NCBI RefSeq assembly: GCF_947492555.1
Contig: NZ_CANLNE010000001.1
Location: 1,116,001 to 1,180,000, forward strand
Direction: 5' to 3'
DNA length: 64,000 bases
DNA from: an uncultured Roseobacter sp.
Lineage (GTDB): Bacteria > Pseudomonadota > Alphaproteobacteria > Rhodobacterales > Rhodobacteraceae
A program made the translations under genes and the position numbers. This document shows, piece after piece, positions 54,990 to 64,000 of the stretch (within the stretch, counting starts at the first letter, position 1; each line of letters begins with the position of its first letter). The notes under the pieces were generated by a model, which was given only the letters and a program-made list of their open reading frames with translations, ran no database searches and was not told the origin of the DNA.

Positions 54990-55391
54990 TCAGTCTTTGG
55001 GTGGCTCTTTCTCGACCGGGCCGCCCTGCTCCGCCCAGGTGGAAAAACCTTCTTTTAAATGGGCCGCCTCGAACCCCATATCCTGGAGCGTCGCCGTGGT
55101 CAGCGCAGACCGCCAACCCGACGCGCAGTGAAAGACAAATTTCTTATCCTGCCCGAATATCTCTTTGAAATAAGGGCTTTGCGGGTCGACCCAGAATTCG
55201 ATCATGCCGCGCGGCGCATGAAAGCTGCCCGGGATGAACCCGCTGCGCTGCCGTTCGCGCACGTCGCGCATATCGACGATAACGACATCCGGATCATCCA
55301 CCATTGCGATCAGATCCTTGGTCTCGATCTCTTCAATGCGGGCACGGGCGTCTGCGACCATTTGCGCAGAGCTGGTCTTCAGTGGGGACAT
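54990..55391 (-). CDS. Rhodanese-like domain protein
   Basis: Single-domain sulfurtransferase of 133 residues. The domain runs from about 25 to 125, the active-site Cys is in HCASGWRS near residue 95, and VIVDMRDVRERQRSGFIPGSFHAPRG is the CDC25/rhodanese motif. It transfers sulfane sulfur to cyanide or thiols. It lies just upstream of the cydAB-like operon and 146 bases from the divergent TauE/SafE gene, so a sulfide or sulfite setting is possible. Confidence 0.88.
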   Translation of the reverse strand: MSPLKTSSAQMVADARARIEEIETKDLIAMVDDPDVVIVDMRDVRERQRSGFIPGSFHAPRGMIEFWVDPQSPYFKEIFGQDKKFVFHCASGWRSALTTATLQDMGFEAAHLKEGFSTWAEQGGPVEKEPPKD

Positions 55392-55537
55392 GGGTCGGCT
55401 CCTTCACGACGATGGGATATCGCAGGCAGCCTGTCACAGCGACGGGCGGGCGACAACGCGGCAAAGGCGCAATTGACACCCGGTGACGTTTCAAGTGACC
55501 TGTGCGGGCGCCTAATGCCACAGCAGGACCAGCCCCC

Positions 55538-56287
55538 TTGGACTACATCACGACCCTCTTTGTGGCGAGCGCCGCCTTTCTTTTTGCCGGAGCCGTCAAG
55601 GGGTTGGCCGGGATCGGCATGCCTACTGCAGCCATTGCCCTAATGACGCTGCTGCTGGACCCGCGCACGGCCATTGCGCTTGTCCTGTTTCCGATGATCG
55701 GGTCAAACGCCTGGCAGGTCTATCGCGCCGGGGAACTGGCGCGCACCATGCGCCGCTATGCGGTCTTTGCCGTCGTGCTGCTGGTGGGCGTAACCGCGAC
55801 GGCCTTTGCCACGCAAGAAACCGGCGACCGGGCGCTGCTGGCCATTTTGGGGTTCGTCATCCTGTTTTTCGTTGCCGTGTCCTGGCGCGGGTTGGTGCCC
55901 CCCCTGCCCGCACGCTTTGACCGGACGGCACAGATCGGGTTCGGGCTGCTGGCCGGTGTCGTCGGTGGCATGACGGCTGGCTGGGGCGCACCGCTTGCGA
56001 TGTATCTGGCAACCAAGCAGGTGGATAAAGACGAATTCGTGCGGGCCACCGGGTTTCTGATTTTCGTGGGCAGCCTGCCGCTTTGCCTCGCCTATATCCA
56101 GCTGGGCTTCATGACTGGTCCGCTTGCCGGGGTGTCTGCGGCGATGTTGCTCCCCACACTGATCGGGTTCAGCATGGGAGAGGTCTTTCGCAAACGCCTC
56201 TCGGGCATCGCCTTTCGCAATGCCCTTCTGATCGTTTTTGTGTTTATGGGTCTGAACCTGATCCGCCGCGCCATCTGGTACGGCTGA
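55538..56287 (+). CDS. TauE/SafE family sulfite exporter-like permease
   Basis: Membrane protein of 249 residues with about seven to eight helices and the two-repeat TauE/SafE pattern: FLFAGAVKGLAGIGMPTAAIALMTLLLDPRTA in the first and GLLAGVVGGMTAGWGAPLAMYLATKQV in the second. The TTG at 55538 is preferred, with AGGA nine bases upstream; the GTG at 55502 is an alternative adding 12 residues. Divergent from the rhodanese gene. Confidence 0.83.
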   Translation: MDYITTLFVASAAFLFAGAVKGLAGIGMPTAAIALMTLLLDPRTAIALVLFPMIGSNAWQVYRAGELARTMRRYAVFAVVLLVGVTATAFATQETGDRALLAILGFVILFFVAVSWRGLVPPLPARFDRTAQIGFGLLAGVVGGMTAGWGAPLAMYLATKQVDKDEFVRATGFLIFVGSLPLCLAYIQLGFMTGPLAGVSAAMLLPTLIGFSMGEVFRKRLSGIAFRNALLIVFVFMGLNLIRRAIWYG

Positions 56288-56290
56288 GGA

Positions 56291-57436
56291 TCAGAAGCAC
56301 GCCTCCAGCAGTTCAGTGGTGTTCTTGACCGTCATCTTCACCGGGTTTCCGCCGACACTTGGGTCCTGCAGCGCAGATGCCACAAGCGCGTCAAGATCCG
56401 GGTCTTTTACACCAAGATCGGTCAGGTTCTTGGGAATATTCAACTTTGCGTTCATTTCACCCACAAAGCGATGGAAGCCGTCAAAGCCCCCCGAAATGCT
56501 CAGGTAGTTGGCCGCCCGTGCCAGATGCTTGCGCACCTTCGGGCGGTTGAACATCAGCACCTGTTGCATGACCACCGCGTTTGTCGTGCCGTGGTGGGTA
56601 TGATGTACAGCGCCAATCGGATGCGACAGGGCGTGGATCGCGCCGAGCCCCTTCTGGAAGGCCGTCGCCCCCATGGCAGCGGCGGACATCATATGCGCCC
56701 GCGCTGTCAGGTTCGTGCCGTCTTCATAGGCCATCAGCAGGTTGTCCTTAACCAGCCGCATGCCCTCCAGTGCCATGCCTTGACTCATCGGGTGATAGTG
56801 AGGCGAGCAATAGGCCTCCAGACAGTGGGCAAAGGCGTCCATGCCCGTCCCCGCCGTGATTGCGGGCGGCATGCCCACCGTCAGCTCAGGATCGCAGATC
56901 ACAACTGAGGGCAGAATTTTCGGGTGGAAGATGATTTTCTTCTCATGAGTCTCTGAATTGGTGATGACGCTGGCACGCCCCACTTCCGAGCCCGTTCCTG
57001 CCGTGGTCGGCACCGCTACGATGGGGGCAATCGCGTCTGCATCGGCGCGTGTCCACCAATCGCCAATGTCCTCGAAATCCCATAAAGGTCGGGTCTGACC
57101 GGCCATGAAGGCAATCACCTTACCGAGGTCGAGCCCCGAGCCGCCACCGAAAGCCACAACGCCGTCATGCCCACCCTCGCGGAACACGCGCACGCCCTCT
57201 TCGGCGTTCTTCTCGGTCGGGTTTGGATCCACATCCGAGAACATCGCGCGACCTAGGCCCGCAGTGGTCAACAGTTCCAGCGTGTTCTGGGTGATCGGCA
57301 AATCCGCCAACCCCTTGTCGGTGACAAGCAGCGGCTTGGTGATCCCTGCTGCCACACAGGCCTCGGCAATCTCGGAAATGCGTCCCGCACCAAAACGGAT
57401 CGCGGTGGGGTAGGACCAGTTTGCAGTCAACGTCAT
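56291..57436 (-). CDS. Iron-containing alcohol dehydrogenase
   Basis: Group III dehydrogenase of 381 residues. NAD-binding GGGSGLDLGKVIA near residue 95 and metal ligand regions TAGTGSE, GMDAFAHCLEAY, ALSHPIGAVHHTHHG are all seen. It oxidises an alcohol to an aldehyde, or the reverse. Last gene of the TRAP/glutamine-synthetase-like operon, four bases after the aldehyde dehydrogenase stop. Suggested substrate: a hydroxyl on a gamma-glutamylated amino alcohol, by context only. Confidence 0.9.
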   Translation of the reverse strand: MTLTANWSYPTAIRFGAGRISEIAEACVAAGITKPLLVTDKGLADLPITQNTLELLTTAGLGRAMFSDVDPNPTEKNAEEGVRVFREGGHDGVVAFGGGSGLDLGKVIAFMAGQTRPLWDFEDIGDWWTRADADAIAPIVAVPTTAGTGSEVGRASVITNSETHEKKIIFHPKILPSVVICDPELTVGMPPAITAGTGMDAFAHCLEAYCSPHYHPMSQGMALEGMRLVKDNLLMAYEDGTNLTARAHMMSAAAMGATAFQKGLGAIHALSHPIGAVHHTHHGTTNAVVMQQVLMFNRPKVRKHLARAANYLSISGGFDGFHRFVGEMNAKLNIPKNLTDLGVKDPDLDALVASALQDPSVGGNPVKMTVKNTTELLEACF

Positions 57437-57440
57437 CGGA

Positions 57441-58814
57441 TCAGGCCTTCTTGAGGTGGTATGATTTGGGGCGTGTCAGATTGTGATAGCCAATGACCGA
57501 CAGCCCACCGCCCCGTCCGGTATCCTTGCACCCGGTCCAGCACAAGCCCGGATCGAGGTAATCGGCGCGGTTCATGAAAACGGTGCCCGTCTCGATCGCA
57601 TCACCAATGGCCTGGGCGCGCGCGACATCGGGCGTCCACAGCGACGCGGTCAACCCGTAGGCGCTGTCGTTCATCAGCCGGACCGCTTCAGCGTCATCTT
57701 TGACGGCCATGATACCCACAACCGGACCAAAGCTTTCATCGCGCATGACGCGCATGGAATGATCCACATCCACCAGGATCTGCGGCATGAGATAGGCGCC
57801 ACCGTCTTCCGGGAAAAGGCTCTTACGGATCAGAGCCTTGGCCCCCGCTGCTAACGCTTCCTCAGTCTGCGCCCGCACCTCATCGGCAAAGCGGACCTGC
57901 GCCATGGGTCCGAGCGTTGTCTCGTGGTCCAGCGGATTGCCGAGCTTGTAGTTTTCGACAATTGAGACGGCTTTATCCACAAACTGAGAGAAAAGCGCTT
58001 CAGCCACATAAATCCGCTCGATCCCGCAGCAGCATTGGCCAGAGTTGAACATCGCCGCGTCGATCAGCGTCTCGGCCGCCGCGTCGACATCGGCGTCCTC
58101 CATGACGTAGCCCGGATCCTTGCCGCCCAGTTCCAGCCCAAGACCCGTAAAGGTACCCGACGCCGAAGCCTCCATTGCCTTGCCGCCACCAACCGAGCCG
58201 GTGAAGTTTACAAACCCAAAGGCACGATCCGCGATCAGCGCTGACGTGGTCCGGTGATCCAGAAATACGTTCTGGAAAACGTCTTCCGGAACGCCCGCCG
58301 CATGGAACGCACGCGCCATGCGCTCCCCCACCAGCGGCGTCTGGCTGGCGTGTTTCAGCATCACCGCATTGCCCGCGATCAGCGCCGGGGCCACCGTGTT
58401 AATGGCGGTCATGTAAGGGTAGTTCCAGGGTGCCACGACCAGAACCAGGCCATGGGGCACCCGCTTGATCATGCGTAGAAAAGCATCGCTCTCCTCCAGC
58501 GCCATGGGCGCCAGCGCCTCCTGCGCAATCCCGGCCATGTATTGGCTGCGCTCGTCGAATCCGCCAAACTCACCACCATAGCGCACCGGGCGTCCCATCT
58601 GCCACGCGAGCTCCGGCACGATCTCGTCGTTCATCGCGCCGACATTGGCAACGCCTCTCAGCACGAGATCGATCCGGTCCTGCAAGGGTCGCGCCGCCCA
58701 ATCCGCCTGCGCCGCCTTGCCTTTGGCCACGGCTTCGGCAGCCTCAAATTCGTTCAGCACGGGCCGGGTCGCGTAGATCGATCCATCGATTGGGGAGATA
58801 CAGGTGATGGTCAT
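57441..58814 (-). CDS. NAD(P)-dependent aldehyde dehydrogenase
   Basis: Aldehyde dehydrogenase superfamily, 457 residues. The catalytic Glu region is LELGGKDPGYV and the catalytic Cys is in FNSGQCCCGIER, with three adjacent cysteines where one is catalytic. NAD-binding WNYPYMTAINTVAPALIAGN is intact. It begins three bases after the glutamine-synthetase-like gene and overlaps no neighbour; it is probably co-transcribed with the alcohol dehydrogenase. Oxidises the aldehyde formed by the ADH, by context. Confidence 0.9.
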   Translation of the reverse strand: MTITCISPIDGSIYATRPVLNEFEAAEAVAKGKAAQADWAARPLQDRIDLVLRGVANVGAMNDEIVPELAWQMGRPVRYGGEFGGFDERSQYMAGIAQEALAPMALEESDAFLRMIKRVPHGLVLVVAPWNYPYMTAINTVAPALIAGNAVMLKHASQTPLVGERMARAFHAAGVPEDVFQNVFLDHRTTSALIADRAFGFVNFTGSVGGGKAMEASASGTFTGLGLELGGKDPGYVMEDADVDAAAETLIDAAMFNSGQCCCGIERIYVAEALFSQFVDKAVSIVENYKLGNPLDHETTLGPMAQVRFADEVRAQTEEALAAGAKALIRKSLFPEDGGAYLMPQILVDVDHSMRVMRDESFGPVVGIMAVKDDAEAVRLMNDSAYGLTASLWTPDVARAQAIGDAIETGTVFMNRADYLDPGLCWTGCKDTGRGGGLSVIGYHNLTRPKSYHLKKA

Positions 58815-58817
58815 GGC

Positions 58818-60182
58818 TCAGGCCCTTTCAAAGCCGCGTGCGATTTCCCAATCGGTCACAGCGCGATCAAATTCTTCCTGCTCCCACTCTGCGCAGCGGG
58901 TGTAGTGGTCGATTACATCGTTTCCCATGGCCGCGCGCAGCATCGCCGAGCCGCGCAGGGTCTCTGTCGCCGCGCGCAATGTCTGTGGGATATCGGCGGC
59001 TTTTGCGTCTTCGTACACGTCACCCTTGGTCGGCGGGGCCAGCGTCATCTTGTCCTCGATCCCCTTGATGCCAGCGGCCAGCATGGCTGCCTGCGCCAGA
59101 TAGGGGTTCAGGTCCGACCCGCCGATGCGGCATTCCACGCGCACGCCTTTCGTGCCATCGCCGCAAAGGCGGAAGCCCGCCGTGCGATTGTCAACCGACC
59201 AGACGGTTTTCGTCGGCGCAAAGGTGCCCTTGGCGAACCGCTTGTAGCTGTTCACGTAAGGCGCGAGGAAGAACGTATAGTCGGGCGCATAGGCAATGAG
59301 CCCGGCCATGTAGTGCTGCATCAGCTCAGACATGCCAAGGTCACCGCTGGTGTCATAAAACGCTGGGGTGTCGCCCTGCCATAGCGACTGATGCACGTGA
59401 GAAGAACTGCCGACCTTATCCGCCGCCCACTTCGGCAGGAAGCTGGCGGCATGGCCGCGTGCCCATGCGATCTCCTTGACGGCATGTTTCGCAATCGTGT
59501 GGTGATCGGCGCAATCCAGCGCTGCGGCGTATCGGATGTTCAACTCCTCCTGCCCAGTCTCCGCCTCGCCCTTGGTGTTTTCCACCGGGATGCCCGCCGC
59601 GTAGAGGTGATTGCGCAGGGGCCGCATGATCCCTTCTTCCTTGGTGGTCTGCAGGATGTGGTAATCTTCGTTATAACCGCTGATCGGCGCCAGATCGCGG
59701 AAACCGGACTTGCGGATCTCGTCATAGCTTTTCTCGAAAAGGAAGAACTCCAATTCTGTCGCCATCATGGCCGTCAGGCCCATCTCTTCCAGGCGCGCGA
59801 CCTGCTGTTTCAGTATTGCGCGCGGGTCATGTGGCACCGGTGCATGGGTGTGATGATCGAGGATATCGCAAAGCACCATGGCCGTGCCCTCCAGCCACGG
59901 CACCGGTCGGATCGTGCTGAGATCAGGTTGCATCACATAGTCGCCGTAACCCGCTTGCCACGAGGTACTTGCGTAGCCATCGGGTGTAGCCATCTCCAGA
60001 TCGGTGGCGAGCAGATAGTTGCAGCAATGGGTTTCAGCGTGGGAATGCTCGATAAAGTTCGCCGCGTGGAACCGCTTGCCCATCAGCCGTCCCTGCATGT
60101 CCACGAAGCAAACAAGAACGGTGTCGACCGTGCCCTCCGCCACCTGTGATTTCAACTGCTCAAAGCTCAGAGTGCCAGCCAT
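58818..60182 (-). CDS. Glutamine synthetase family (gamma-glutamyl ligase-like)
   Basis: Ligase of 454 residues, of the GS type III/PuuA-like class rather than the housekeeping GlnA. The ATP/metal region MMATELEFFLFEKSYDEI, SSHVHQSLW and the C-terminal GVRVECRIGGSDLNPYLAQAAMLAAGIKGIEDKM are typical. The ATG at 60182 has GGAAC upstream and is preferred to the ATG four codons earlier. Members of this class attach the gamma-carboxyl of glutamate to polyamines, ethanolamine or other amines. Follows dctP with a hairpin between. Confidence 0.88.
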   Translation of the reverse strand: MAGTLSFEQLKSQVAEGTVDTVLVCFVDMQGRLMGKRFHAANFIEHSHAETHCCNYLLATDLEMATPDGYASTSWQAGYGDYVMQPDLSTIRPVPWLEGTAMVLCDILDHHTHAPVPHDPRAILKQQVARLEEMGLTAMMATELEFFLFEKSYDEIRKSGFRDLAPISGYNEDYHILQTTKEEGIMRPLRNHLYAAGIPVENTKGEAETGQEELNIRYAAALDCADHHTIAKHAVKEIAWARGHAASFLPKWAADKVGSSSHVHQSLWQGDTPAFYDTSGDLGMSELMQHYMAGLIAYAPDYTFFLAPYVNSYKRFAKGTFAPTKTVWSVDNRTAGFRLCGDGTKGVRVECRIGGSDLNPYLAQAAMLAAGIKGIEDKMTLAPPTKGDVYEDAKAADIPQTLRAATETLRGSAMLRAAMGNDVIDHYTRCAEWEQEEFDRAVTDWEIARGFERA

Positions 60183-60206
60183 GGGATGTTCCATTTTTAG
60201 AGAGGT

Positions 60207-60230
60207 CGGGGGCGGACTGCACCGCCCCCG
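60207..60230 (-). terminator. Hairpin after dctP (second TRAP operon)
   Basis: Inverted repeat CGGGGGCGG (60207-60215), loop ACTGCA, CCGCCCCCG (60222-60230), seven bases beyond the dctP stop on the minus strand. No T run. Same position as the hairpins after the other two binding-protein genes in this window. Confidence 0.65.
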
Positions 60231-60236
60231 GTTCGT

Positions 60237-61271
60237 TTAAGTATAGCGATAGGGCCGTCCGGCCTTGACCATATCGGCGTTGTACTTCTTGAAGATGTCC
60301 ACGACCTTGGCCTTGATCTCGCTCTCGGCTGCGATCTCGTCCCAGAACTTGAGCGCCGCGTCCTCAACCTGCTGCCATTCCGCATCGGGGATCGAGGTCA
60401 GCTCCATCTTGGTGCCGTTCACCCGCAGGTTGGCCTCGCCGCCCCAGTACCACCACTGGCGATAATAATGCGACTGGTCCATGCAGACCTTGAGCAGTTC
60501 CTGCAGATCCGGCGGCAGCGCATTGTAGCTTTCCATATTGGCAAAGAACGAGCCCGCCCACGCGCCGGAGATGTTGTTGGTCAGGAAGTAGTTGGTCACA
60601 TCCGCCCAGCCCACGGTGTAATCTTCGGTGATACCCGACCAGGCGATGCCGTCGAGCTCGCCGGTTTGCACGGCGACTTCGATGTCTTCCCACGGCAGGG
60701 TCACCGGGACCACACCGAATTGCGTCAGGAACCGGCCCGCGGTGGGGAAGGTGAAGACCCGTTTGCCCTTGAGGTCTTCGAGGCTGCGGATCGGGTCCTT
60801 GGTGGCGAAGTGGCACGGGTCCCAGGCACCCGCCGAGATGTGCTTTACACCGACGGCGGAGTACTGCTCGTCCCATATCTCGTTCAGCCCGTATTGGTTG
60901 AAGAGCACCGGCACATCGAGTGAATAGCGCGAGGCGAAGGGGAAATAGCCGCCAAAAACGGTGACTTCGGTGGGTGAGGCCATGGAGTCGTCATCGGATT
61001 GCACCGCGTCGATGGTGCCGTTCTGCATCGCGCGGAAGAGCTCCCCCGTGGGCACCAGTTGATCGGCAAAGAAAAGCTCGATCTGCATCCGGTCACCGGC
61101 GATCTTGTTGAAGCTGTCGATGGCTGGTTTGATCACATGCTCGGCCAACGCCGGACCTGCATAGGTCTGCATCCGCCATTTGATTGTCGATTGCGCCAGT
61201 GCCGGTGCGGCCAGCGGCGCTGCTGCGGCCCCGGCTGCGGCGCTGGTCAGAAACTTACGTCTTGTTGTCAT
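60237..61271 (-). CDS. TRAP transporter substrate-binding protein DctP (TakP-like)
   Basis: Periplasmic receptor of 344 residues with a Tat signal: MTTRRKFLTSAAAGAAAAP, then cleavage after PALAQ. The sequence STIKWRMQTYAGPALAEHVIKP and the later DLKGKRVFTFPTAGRFLTQFGVVPVTLPWEDIEVAVQTGELDGIAW are typical of the TakP/DctP7 family, many of which bind alpha-keto or hydroxy acids. RBS AAGGAG precedes the ATG. Flanked by hairpins at 61298-61313 and 60207-60230. Confidence 0.92.
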   Translation of the reverse strand: MTTRRKFLTSAAAGAAAAPLAAPALAQSTIKWRMQTYAGPALAEHVIKPAIDSFNKIAGDRMQIELFFADQLVPTGELFRAMQNGTIDAVQSDDDSMASPTEVTVFGGYFPFASRYSLDVPVLFNQYGLNEIWDEQYSAVGVKHISAGAWDPCHFATKDPIRSLEDLKGKRVFTFPTAGRFLTQFGVVPVTLPWEDIEVAVQTGELDGIAWSGITEDYTVGWADVTNYFLTNNISGAWAGSFFANMESYNALPPDLQELLKVCMDQSHYYRQWWYWGGEANLRVNGTKMELTSIPDAEWQQVEDAALKFWDEIAAESEIKAKVVDIFKKYNADMVKAGRPYRYT

Positions 61272-61297
61272 GGTCTTACTCCTTGTTGAGGTGAATG

Positions 61298-61313
61298 CCC
61301 CGGTCAGCCGGGG
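61298..61313 (-). repeat. Hairpin upstream of dctP
   Basis: Inverted repeat CCCCGG-TCAG-CCGGGG in the dctM-dctP gap, 27 bases before the dctP start and 7 bases beyond the dctM stop. Six base pairs of pure G/C. Possible processing or 5' stability element of the dctP message. Confidence 0.5.
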
Positions 61314-61319
61314 TCTTGA

Positions 61320-62642
61320 TTATTTTCCGTAAACATACTCCGGCAGCCACAGGGCGATCTGCGGGAAGGTCATGATCAACGCGAGGCATCCAATCATCAC
61401 GATCACGAAGGGCAGGATCGAGCCGTAGATGTCCTTGAGCGTGATCTCGGGCGGGGCCATCGCCCGCATCAAAAAGAGGTTATAGCCAAAGGGCGGCGTC
61501 ATATAGGCGATCTGTGTGGTGATCGTGTAGAGCACGCCGTACCAGATCAGATCAAATCCCAGAGCAGCGACAAGTGGCACGTAGAGGGGCGCCACAATCA
61601 CCAGCATCGCGGTATCATCAAGGAAGGTGCCCATCAGCAGAAATGACAGCTGCATCAGGATCAGGATCATCCAGGGGTTCAGGCCCAACTGTTCCGTAAA
61701 CAACTGATCGATGGCTTTGACCGCACCCAGACCGTCAAAAACCGCACCAAACCCGAGGGCGGCGAGAATAATCCACATGAACATGCAGGAGATCGCCAGC
61801 GTCTGGCGCACGGAGGTTTCGAACACCTCCTTGTTCATCCGCCCTTTCAGTACGGCTGCCATGAACGCGGTCAGCGCGCCGATGGCTGAGCTTTCCACGA
61901 GGCTGGTCCAGCCGTTCACAAACGGCACCATCATCGCCATGAAGATCACGATAGGTAGCAGACCAGCGCGCAGCAGCCGCAGTTTCTCGGCCATCGGCAC
62001 CGTCCGCTCTTCGGGTGGCAACACGGGGCCCAGCGCAGGGTTCGCCTTGCAGCGCAGGTAGATATAGAGAATGAACGCCGCCGCCATCATCAGCCCGGGC
62101 ACAACACCAGCCAGCCACAATTGCCCCACCGGCTGCCGGGCAATCATCGCGTAGAGTACCAGCACCACCGAGGGCGGCACCAAAATACCCAAACTCGACC
62201 CCGCCTGAATGACCCCTGTCACCATGCGTTTGTCATAACCGCGCCGCAGCAGTTCCGGCAGCGCGATGGTCGCCCCGATGGCCATGCCCGCGACACTCAA
62301 TCCGTTCATGGCGGAGACCAGCACCATCAGCCCGATGGTCCCAATGGCCAGCCCACCCGAGACCGGCCCCATCCAGACATGAAACATCTTGTAGAGGTCA
62401 TCCGCGATCTTCGATTCCGACAGCACGTAGCCCATGAAAATGAACATCGGCAGCGTCAGCAGCGGATACCATTTCATCAGCTTCATGGCGGAGGAAAACG
62501 GGATGTTAACCCCGCCCGGCGTCCAGAGCAGCACCGCTGCAATCGCCGCCACGCCGCCGATGGCACCGAACACCCGCTGACCGGTCATCAGCATCAGCAT
62601 CATCGAGGCGAACATCAGGATCGCGATCATCTCATACGACAT
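61320..62642 (-). CDS. TRAP transporter large permease DctM
   Basis: Channel subunit of 440 residues with about 12 helices. DctM motifs: GLMVLVSAMNGLSVAGMAIGATIALPELLRRGYDKRMVTGVIQAGSSLGILVPPSVVLVLYAM and the C-terminal ITTQIAYMTPPFGYNLFLMRAMAP. ATG at 62642 overlaps the dctQ end by 11 bases. The operon order here is dctQ-dctM-dctP, different from the dctPQM order at 30416. Confidence 0.93.
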   Translation of the reverse strand: MSYEMIAILMFASMMLMLMTGQRVFGAIGGVAAIAAVLLWTPGGVNIPFSSAMKLMKWYPLLTLPMFIFMGYVLSESKIADDLYKMFHVWMGPVSGGLAIGTIGLMVLVSAMNGLSVAGMAIGATIALPELLRRGYDKRMVTGVIQAGSSLGILVPPSVVLVLYAMIARQPVGQLWLAGVVPGLMMAAAFILYIYLRCKANPALGPVLPPEERTVPMAEKLRLLRAGLLPIVIFMAMMVPFVNGWTSLVESSAIGALTAFMAAVLKGRMNKEVFETSVRQTLAISCMFMWIILAALGFGAVFDGLGAVKAIDQLFTEQLGLNPWMILILMQLSFLLMGTFLDDTAMLVIVAPLYVPLVAALGFDLIWYGVLYTITTQIAYMTPPFGYNLFLMRAMAPPEITLKDIYGSILPFVIVMIGCLALIMTFPQIALWLPEYVYGK

Positions 62643-63210
62643 CGAGATCAACCTCGCGCAATGTCGCAATATCCTTGATCAGCTCGGAGATCGCCTGCAG
62701 CAGCATCAGGAAGAACCCCGCGATCATGACCGCCTTGATCGGCCAGATATAGGGTCGCCACGCGGTGCTGGAGCGCTCCAACCGTCCGACCTCCTCCGAC
62801 CCGGTCAGAAGTCCGGCGAAGTAGGTCAGCGGCTCCTGCCCCCAATACCCCAGCGAATAGGCGGTCGACCCCAGCGCGCCATAGAGCAGGATGCCCAGAT
62901 AAAAGATCAGCAGCAGCACGGTGAAGGCGTCGAACCACGCTTTCTTCGCCACCGACCAGTTGTGATAGAAGAGATCCATGCGCACATTGGCGCCCAGCTG
63001 CATCGCGTAAGGCCCACCGGTGATGTAATAGGCCACCATCGCAAATTGCGCCATTTCCAGCGTCCAGAGGGTCGGCAGAAAGAAGGTCTTGGAGATCGAC
63101 GACCACAGCAGGATCGCCATCATGACAAAGATACCGTACATCATGATGCGCCCGATCCGGTAGTTCACCGCATCCACCCAGCGGACATAGAAAGCGGCCA
63201 CGCGCCTCAT
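62632..63210 (-). CDS. TRAP transporter small permease DctQ
   Basis: Four-helix membrane subunit of 192 residues (helices at about 20-45, 55-75, 95-115 and 155-180). The ATG at 63210 has GGAGGCG upstream and overlaps the stop of the amidohydrolase gene (ATGA). Motif AMQLGANVRMDLFYHNW is DctQ-like. Pairs with DctM. Confidence 0.9.
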   Translation of the reverse strand: MRRVAAFYVRWVDAVNYRIGRIMMYGIFVMMAILLWSSISKTFFLPTLWTLEMAQFAMVAYYITGGPYAMQLGANVRMDLFYHNWSVAKKAWFDAFTVLLLIFYLGILLYGALGSTAYSLGYWGQEPLTYFAGLLTGSEEVGRLERSSTAWRPYIWPIKAVMIAGFFLMLLQAISELIKDIATLREVDLDVV

Positions 63211-63971
63211 GCTGCCGCCTCCAGTGCCGCAAGCGCCTGGGCGACCCAACCGGCAAGCATTTCCGCCACGTCCTGCTGCTGTTGCGTGGTGGCGATCAGA
63301 TCATTCCGGATCTCAAGCATCACATTGGGGATGCCGCGGCTCTGCCCGTGCAGTTTCAGCGTATGCGTTACGCCGTCCTCGGGTCCATAGGGCGCATTCC
63401 GCTGGACGTGCAGCGCCGTGTGCCGGATCGCTGTGCTGAGCATGGCGTCCGCAAGCCGCGTGTCGCTGTCATGCAGGATACCGATTTCCACGTCGCGGGT
63501 TTGCCTCATGAAAATCGGCGTGAAACTGTGTACGGTTACCAGAACCCGCGCGTTCGCTGCATCCATGGTGTCGCGCACCGCGGCCTCGAACGGCAGATAA
63601 TAACGCACAACACGGTCCGCCCGGTCCGCCCCGCTCAACCCGATGTTGCCCGGAATGTCGCGGCCCTCGCTCTGGTCCAGAATGGCGGAGGCGGCTTCAG
63701 GCGGACGGTTGCAATCATAGATCAGCCGCGACACTGCGCCTGCCACAAGAGGCGCATCAAGGCGTTCCGACATCCTGCGCGCAACCGCCAGTGCGCCGGG
63801 ATCCCAAGCTGCGTGGCCCTTTTGCATGTCAGGCGGCAGCCCCAGCGCGTTCAGTTCCGGCGGGAAGAAGGCGCTGGCGTGTTCGCAGACCAATACGGTA
63901 CCGGACGCACCATCTGCATGTAGTACATGCACCGGTACATCCTCCTGTTGCGCTGCGCCTGGTTTCGTCAT
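63207..63971 (-). CDS. N-formylglutamate amidohydrolase family protein
   Basis: Zinc amidohydrolase relative of HutG, 254 residues. CEHASAFFPPEL near residue 30, DPGALAVARRMSERLDAPLV, the conserved NRPPEAASAI and VTVHSFTPIF (a metal His) fit the FGase family. It is not the histidine-pathway HutG, which is at 42760-43560, so the substrate is likely a different N-acyl or gamma-glutamyl amide. First gene of the TRAP/ligase/dehydrogenase operon; it overlaps dctQ by four bases. The 29 bases upstream to the window edge hold only its ribosome site. Confidence 0.83.
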   Translation of the reverse strand: MTKPGAAQQEDVPVHVLHADGASGTVLVCEHASAFFPPELNALGLPPDMQKGHAAWDPGALAVARRMSERLDAPLVAGAVSRLIYDCNRPPEAASAILDQSEGRDIPGNIGLSGADRADRVVRYYLPFEAAVRDTMDAANARVLVTVHSFTPIFMRQTRDVEIGILHDSDTRLADAMLSTAIRHTALHVQRNAPYGPEDGVTHTLKLHGQSRGIPNVMLEIRNDLIATTQQQQDVAEMLAGWVAQALAALEAAA

Positions 63972-64000
63972 TCGACCCCCGTTTCGCATAAACTTCTTGC

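Follow-up and report, generated by a model that had tools for sequence, protein, structure and literature searches.

A locus of an uncultured Roseobacter sp. that is very probably an ethanolamine-catabolic operon of the published eto type known from a roseobacter

The window, i.e. the whole stretch of 64,000 nucleotides that was analysed, carries on its minus strand seven closely spaced genes (56291-63989), starting with a gene for an FGase-family amidohydrolase and ending with a gene for an iron-type alcohol dehydrogenase (Fe-ADH). In 5' to 3' order they encode the FGase-family amidohydrolase (63207..63989; PF05013, 133 bits), the TRAP small permease DctQ (62632..63210; PF04290, 51 bits), the TRAP large permease DctM (61320..62642; PF06808, 220 bits), a DctP-type solute-binding protein (60237..61271; PF03480, 71 bits), a glutamine synthetase (GS)-like ligase (58818..60194; PF00120, Gln-synt_C, 327 bits), an aldehyde dehydrogenase (ALDH; 57441..58814; PF00171, Aldedh, 362 bits) and the Fe-ADH (56291..57436; PF00465, Fe-ADH, 166 bits). 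These family calls are based on Pfam profiles, and all seven scores exceed the curated cut-offs. From the first to the last gene, the intergenic spacing is -4, -11, 48, 42, 3 and 4 bases. The seven genes on one strand with short spacing and the families proposed in an earlier reading of the sequence alone are therefore confirmed. At position 63971, which it gave as the upper end of the operon, the FGase-family gene has an internal Met codon; the first ATG of this gene is found at 63989, and a TTG lies further upstream. No tRNA genes were detected in the 64-kb window. Just beyond the end of the window, the same contig contains a divergently oriented gene for an RpiR-type regulator with HTH_6 and SIS domains and a TTG start (L006:10092-10964, equal to contig C1 1180091-1180963), which is likely part of the system.

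The same arrangement has been published for Phaeobacter/Roseobacter sp. MED193, in which Westermann et al. 2023 (PMC10132767) described an ethanolamine (eto) operon (MED193_10021-10056). The legend of their Fig. 5 names RpiR, GGAH (gamma-glutamylglycine amidohydrolase), EtoV, EtoW, EtoX, ETAGA (ethanolamine gamma-glutamylase), GAADDH and GETADH, and the order of the MED193 locus tags given there is the gene order observed here. Searching the MED193 record (L082) by tblastn revealed eight matches in identical order and orientation with 52-88% identity: the binding protein (EtoX ortholog, 88%), the ALDH (GAADDH ortholog, 75%), the ligase (ETAGA ortholog, 74%), the Fe-ADH (GETADH ortholog, gamma-glutamylethanolamide dehydrogenase, 71%), DctM (EtoW ortholog, 66%), DctQ (EtoV ortholog, 59%), the RpiR regulator (54%) and the FGase-family protein (GGAH ortholog, a predicted gamma-glutamylglycine amidohydrolase, 52% over 226 of 260 amino acids). 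The gene set and order RpiR / FGase-DctQ-DctM-SBP-GS-ALDH-ADH of the MED193 eto type is thus present. The MED193 DctM is about 60 residues longer (500 versus 440 here), and the TauE-family and rhodanese genes that adjoin the operon here have no match in the 21 kb of the MED193 record, but no functional difference between the two loci was seen. The locus very probably represents the same eto operon as that of MED193. The statement of the sequence-only reading that no operon with exactly this set had been described cannot be upheld, because MED193 has the same gene order (PMC10132767) and a corresponding prediction for Chromohalobacter salexigens is cited in PMC6529630. A literature search returned no further paper whose title points to this operon.

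In the MED193 ortholog, ethanolamine binding has been shown for EtoX (Kd 7.9 uM), while four other named compounds were not bound (PMC10132767). Five proteins of the MED193 operon were shown to be more abundant on phosphorylethanolamine (PMC10132767, Table 2). EtoX also increased without phosphorus (FC 2.14), and its rise is therefore not specific to phosphorylethanolamine. For MED193 as well as for the locus described here, we infer the individual enzymatic steps and the control by RpiR. According to PMC10132767, which cites Vetting et al. 2015, the eto genes are close relatives of genes whose role was demonstrated in C. salexigens and A. tumefaciens C58, whereas PMC6529630 terms the C. salexigens pathway an in silico prediction. 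The binding protein of the Csal_0678 ethanolamine cluster of C. salexigens (PDB 4uab, E 8e-188) matches its counterpart here, as does PDB 5dm3, presumably the ligase of that cluster.

The best PDB match of the binding protein is 4uab/4xf5, two entries with identical protein sequence (E 8.1e-188; next best match 7.2e-18), and together with the 88% identity to the MED193 protein this supports orthology to both EtoX and Csal_0678. The 4uab structure is Csal_0678 with ethanolamine, in which Glu220 coordinates the amine and the hydroxyl group (PMC12410723). E216 of the protein here probably corresponds to this platform Glu220, assuming an offset in the residue numbering; it is kept in 4uab and unchanged in 80 of 80 relatives, all of them close. 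AlphaFold gave only a poor model for this protein (mean pLDDT 52.2). In a HMMER alignment, the Arg of a KMRIP-type segment in other TRAP proteins, which we take to be Arg-147 of SiaP, aligns with F173, and this Phe is likewise unchanged in all 80 relatives, again all close ones, so that the position associated with carboxylate binding contains no Arg. TRAP systems mostly transport negatively charged carboxylates (PMC5812351), and on the basis of the TRAP transporter the sequence-only reading had proposed an acidic amino alcohol as substrate. This proposal has hardly any chance of being correct, and we reject it: the binding protein belongs to the type that binds ethanolamine and carries, as do its close relatives, a Phe where the carboxylate-binding Arg would be expected. 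Csal_0678 also lacks an equivalent of Arg-147, a residue connected with the binding of carboxylates by TRAP proteins (PMC4646407). The 2018 review PMC5812351 describes a TRAP system for this cation as particularly surprising, and in both PMC5812351 and PMC4646407 the Csal_0678-type protein or its ligand is named as an exception among TRAP systems. Thus, TRAP uptake of this cation is a recognised exception that is explained by the missing carboxylate-binding Arg in this type of binding protein. By orthology, we predict with high confidence that ethanolamine, and not an acidic amino alcohol, is the substrate.

A second alternative concerns other small cationic amino alcohols. The ligand of 4xf5, which has the same protein sequence as 4uab, is presumably 2-amino-1-propanol, and other small amino alcohols may therefore be imported as well. 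If the pathway acted mainly on such a compound, 2-amino-1-propanol would be converted via gamma-glutamylalanine to alanine. This is very improbable, however, because the Kd measured for the 88%-identical ortholog is for ethanolamine, and because the five MED193 operon proteins respond to phosphorylethanolamine (PMC10132767). A pathway broader than described, acting on a range of small amino alcohols (ethanolamine, alaninol and perhaps isopropanolamine), is also unlikely; in that case, the operon would feed glycine, alanine or related amino acids.

The enzymes were also compared with those of other amine-degrading routes. The closest solved relative of the ligase is PDB 5dm3 (E 6.7e-231), which we take to be Csal_0679, followed by 11zs (E 4.6e-176). 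The genome encodes four other GS-family proteins, with which the ligase shares only 28-30% identity. Among all five proteins, an FDGSS segment, presumably part of the ammonium site, is found only in L001, and alignment with L001 showed that it is absent from the ligase. The Puu pathway for putrescine resembles the present operon in that it combines a GS-like ligase, an oxidation, an ALDH and amide hydrolysis; it differs by using the amine oxidase PuuB instead of an ADH and PuuD as hydrolase. A Puu-type polyamine route was rejected, as the ligase scored 207.8 bits against the NCBIfam model GGputSyn (gamma-glutamylputrescine synthetase), far under its cut-off of 650. The Eut ammonia-lyase route was rejected because no EutB match (PF06751) was found in the genome, which is 99.99% complete; among 14 control genomes, only E. 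coli was positive. The ALDH contains GQCCC at position 259 and LELGGK at position 227, which we assume to be the catalytic motifs, and in the Fe-ADH the spacing of D200, H204, H268 and H282 is approximately that of the positions we take to be the metal ligands of this family.

The FGase-family protein matches PDB 2odf (Atu2144 of A. tumefaciens) in sequence (E 2.5e-70), and its predicted model, which is of good quality (pLDDT 89.8), also matches the 2odf fold (TM 0.89, 52% identity). The likeness to 2q7s, deposited as an N-formylglutamate amidohydrolase, is far weaker (TM 0.59, 17% identity). For the modelled protein, this would fit a substrate other than N-formylglutamate, without showing one.

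Taken together, the operon would support the following ethanolamine pathway. The EtoX-type binding protein would capture ethanolamine in the periplasm for import through the TRAP permease. The GS-like ligase would then form gamma-glutamylethanolamide from ethanolamine, glutamate and ATP, the Fe-ADH would oxidise the hydroxyl group of this compound to the aldehyde, and the ALDH would convert the aldehyde into gamma-glutamylglycine. Finally, the FGase-family hydrolase is predicted to cleave gamma-glutamylglycine into glycine and glutamate, and since glutamate is released along with glycine, it would be recycled. The divergent RpiR-type regulator probably controls the operon. Orthology thus supports the earlier suggestion of gamma-glutamylation of an amino alcohol followed by the action of ADH, ALDH and an FGase-family hydrolase. 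In Streptomyces coelicolor, growth on ethanolamine requires GlnA4, and a route with identical steps that ends in glycine and glutamate has been proposed (PMC6529630). Shared features are the gamma-glutamylation of ethanolamine and, as proposed, a dehydrogenase, an ALDH and a last step by a member of the formylglutamate-amidohydrolase family. In contrast, the legend to the S. coelicolor cluster in PMC6529630 names a short-chain dehydrogenase as well as another kind of transporter, and does not list a TRAP system. The ethanolamine gamma-glutamylation route is reviewed in PMC9397018.

A match to the binding protein (E <= 1e-60) was found in 87 of the 149 family genomes searched, including the genome that contains the window, while 62 had no match. 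The gene order was analysed in the best 80 of at least 584 confirmed loci, and the sample therefore leans to close relatives. Within it, 59 loci retain the complete eight-gene layout with unchanged order and orientation; inserted genes were not penalised in this count, and six of the 59 have a longer gap between the binding-protein and ligase genes. Of the other 21 loci, there are eight in which the contig stops where the missing gene is expected (L049, L069, L072, L075, L089, L095, L112, L116), two that are ambiguous (L065, L093), and eleven in which one or more genes are absent despite enough flanking sequence (L047, L052, L067, L080, L081, L083, L087, L101, L107, L109, L113), with genes scored as absent at E <= 1e-15. 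For this sample, conservation of the operon in Rhodobacteraceae is supported.

The operon is already known and ordinary for this group of bacteria, and adds little that is new: it provides, from a marine bacterium, a further well-conserved example of a published pathway by which ethanolamine of membrane lipids is recycled in the sea. Its remaining use may lie in the enzyme steps and in the variation among relatives, such as additional DNA within the operon of six Ruegeria loci. In these six of the 74 loci with both genes (among the best 80), all named Ruegeria, 1.2-1.9 kb separate the binding-protein and ligase genes (L085:11184-12869 and L114:11184-12152, with a similar gap in L092, L097, L098 and L100). 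In both loci tested with Pfam (L085 and L114), the inserted DNA contains a Na/Pi cotransporter gene, and in L085 also a PhoU domain, which suggests that the uptake of ethanolamine and that of phosphate are linked. A different variant is L047, which has the FGase and TRAP genes and no match to the ligase, ALDH or ADH within 10 kb downstream (E <= 1e-15); the next open frame of at least 150 amino acids (L047:11380-12921), on the opposite strand, encodes an MttB-family methyltransferase.

Additional genes flank the operon on both sides. The adjoining TauE-family gene (window 55502-56287) and rhodanese gene (54990-55391) were found in only five and two of the best 80 loci, respectively; they were therefore not counted as parts of the system and are probably unrelated neighbours. 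On the other side, the RpiR gene is followed on the same strand by an AMP-binding gene of the acyl-CoA ligase type (L006:10711-12681), with matches of about 80% or better in three of the best 80 loci and weaker matches in three more.
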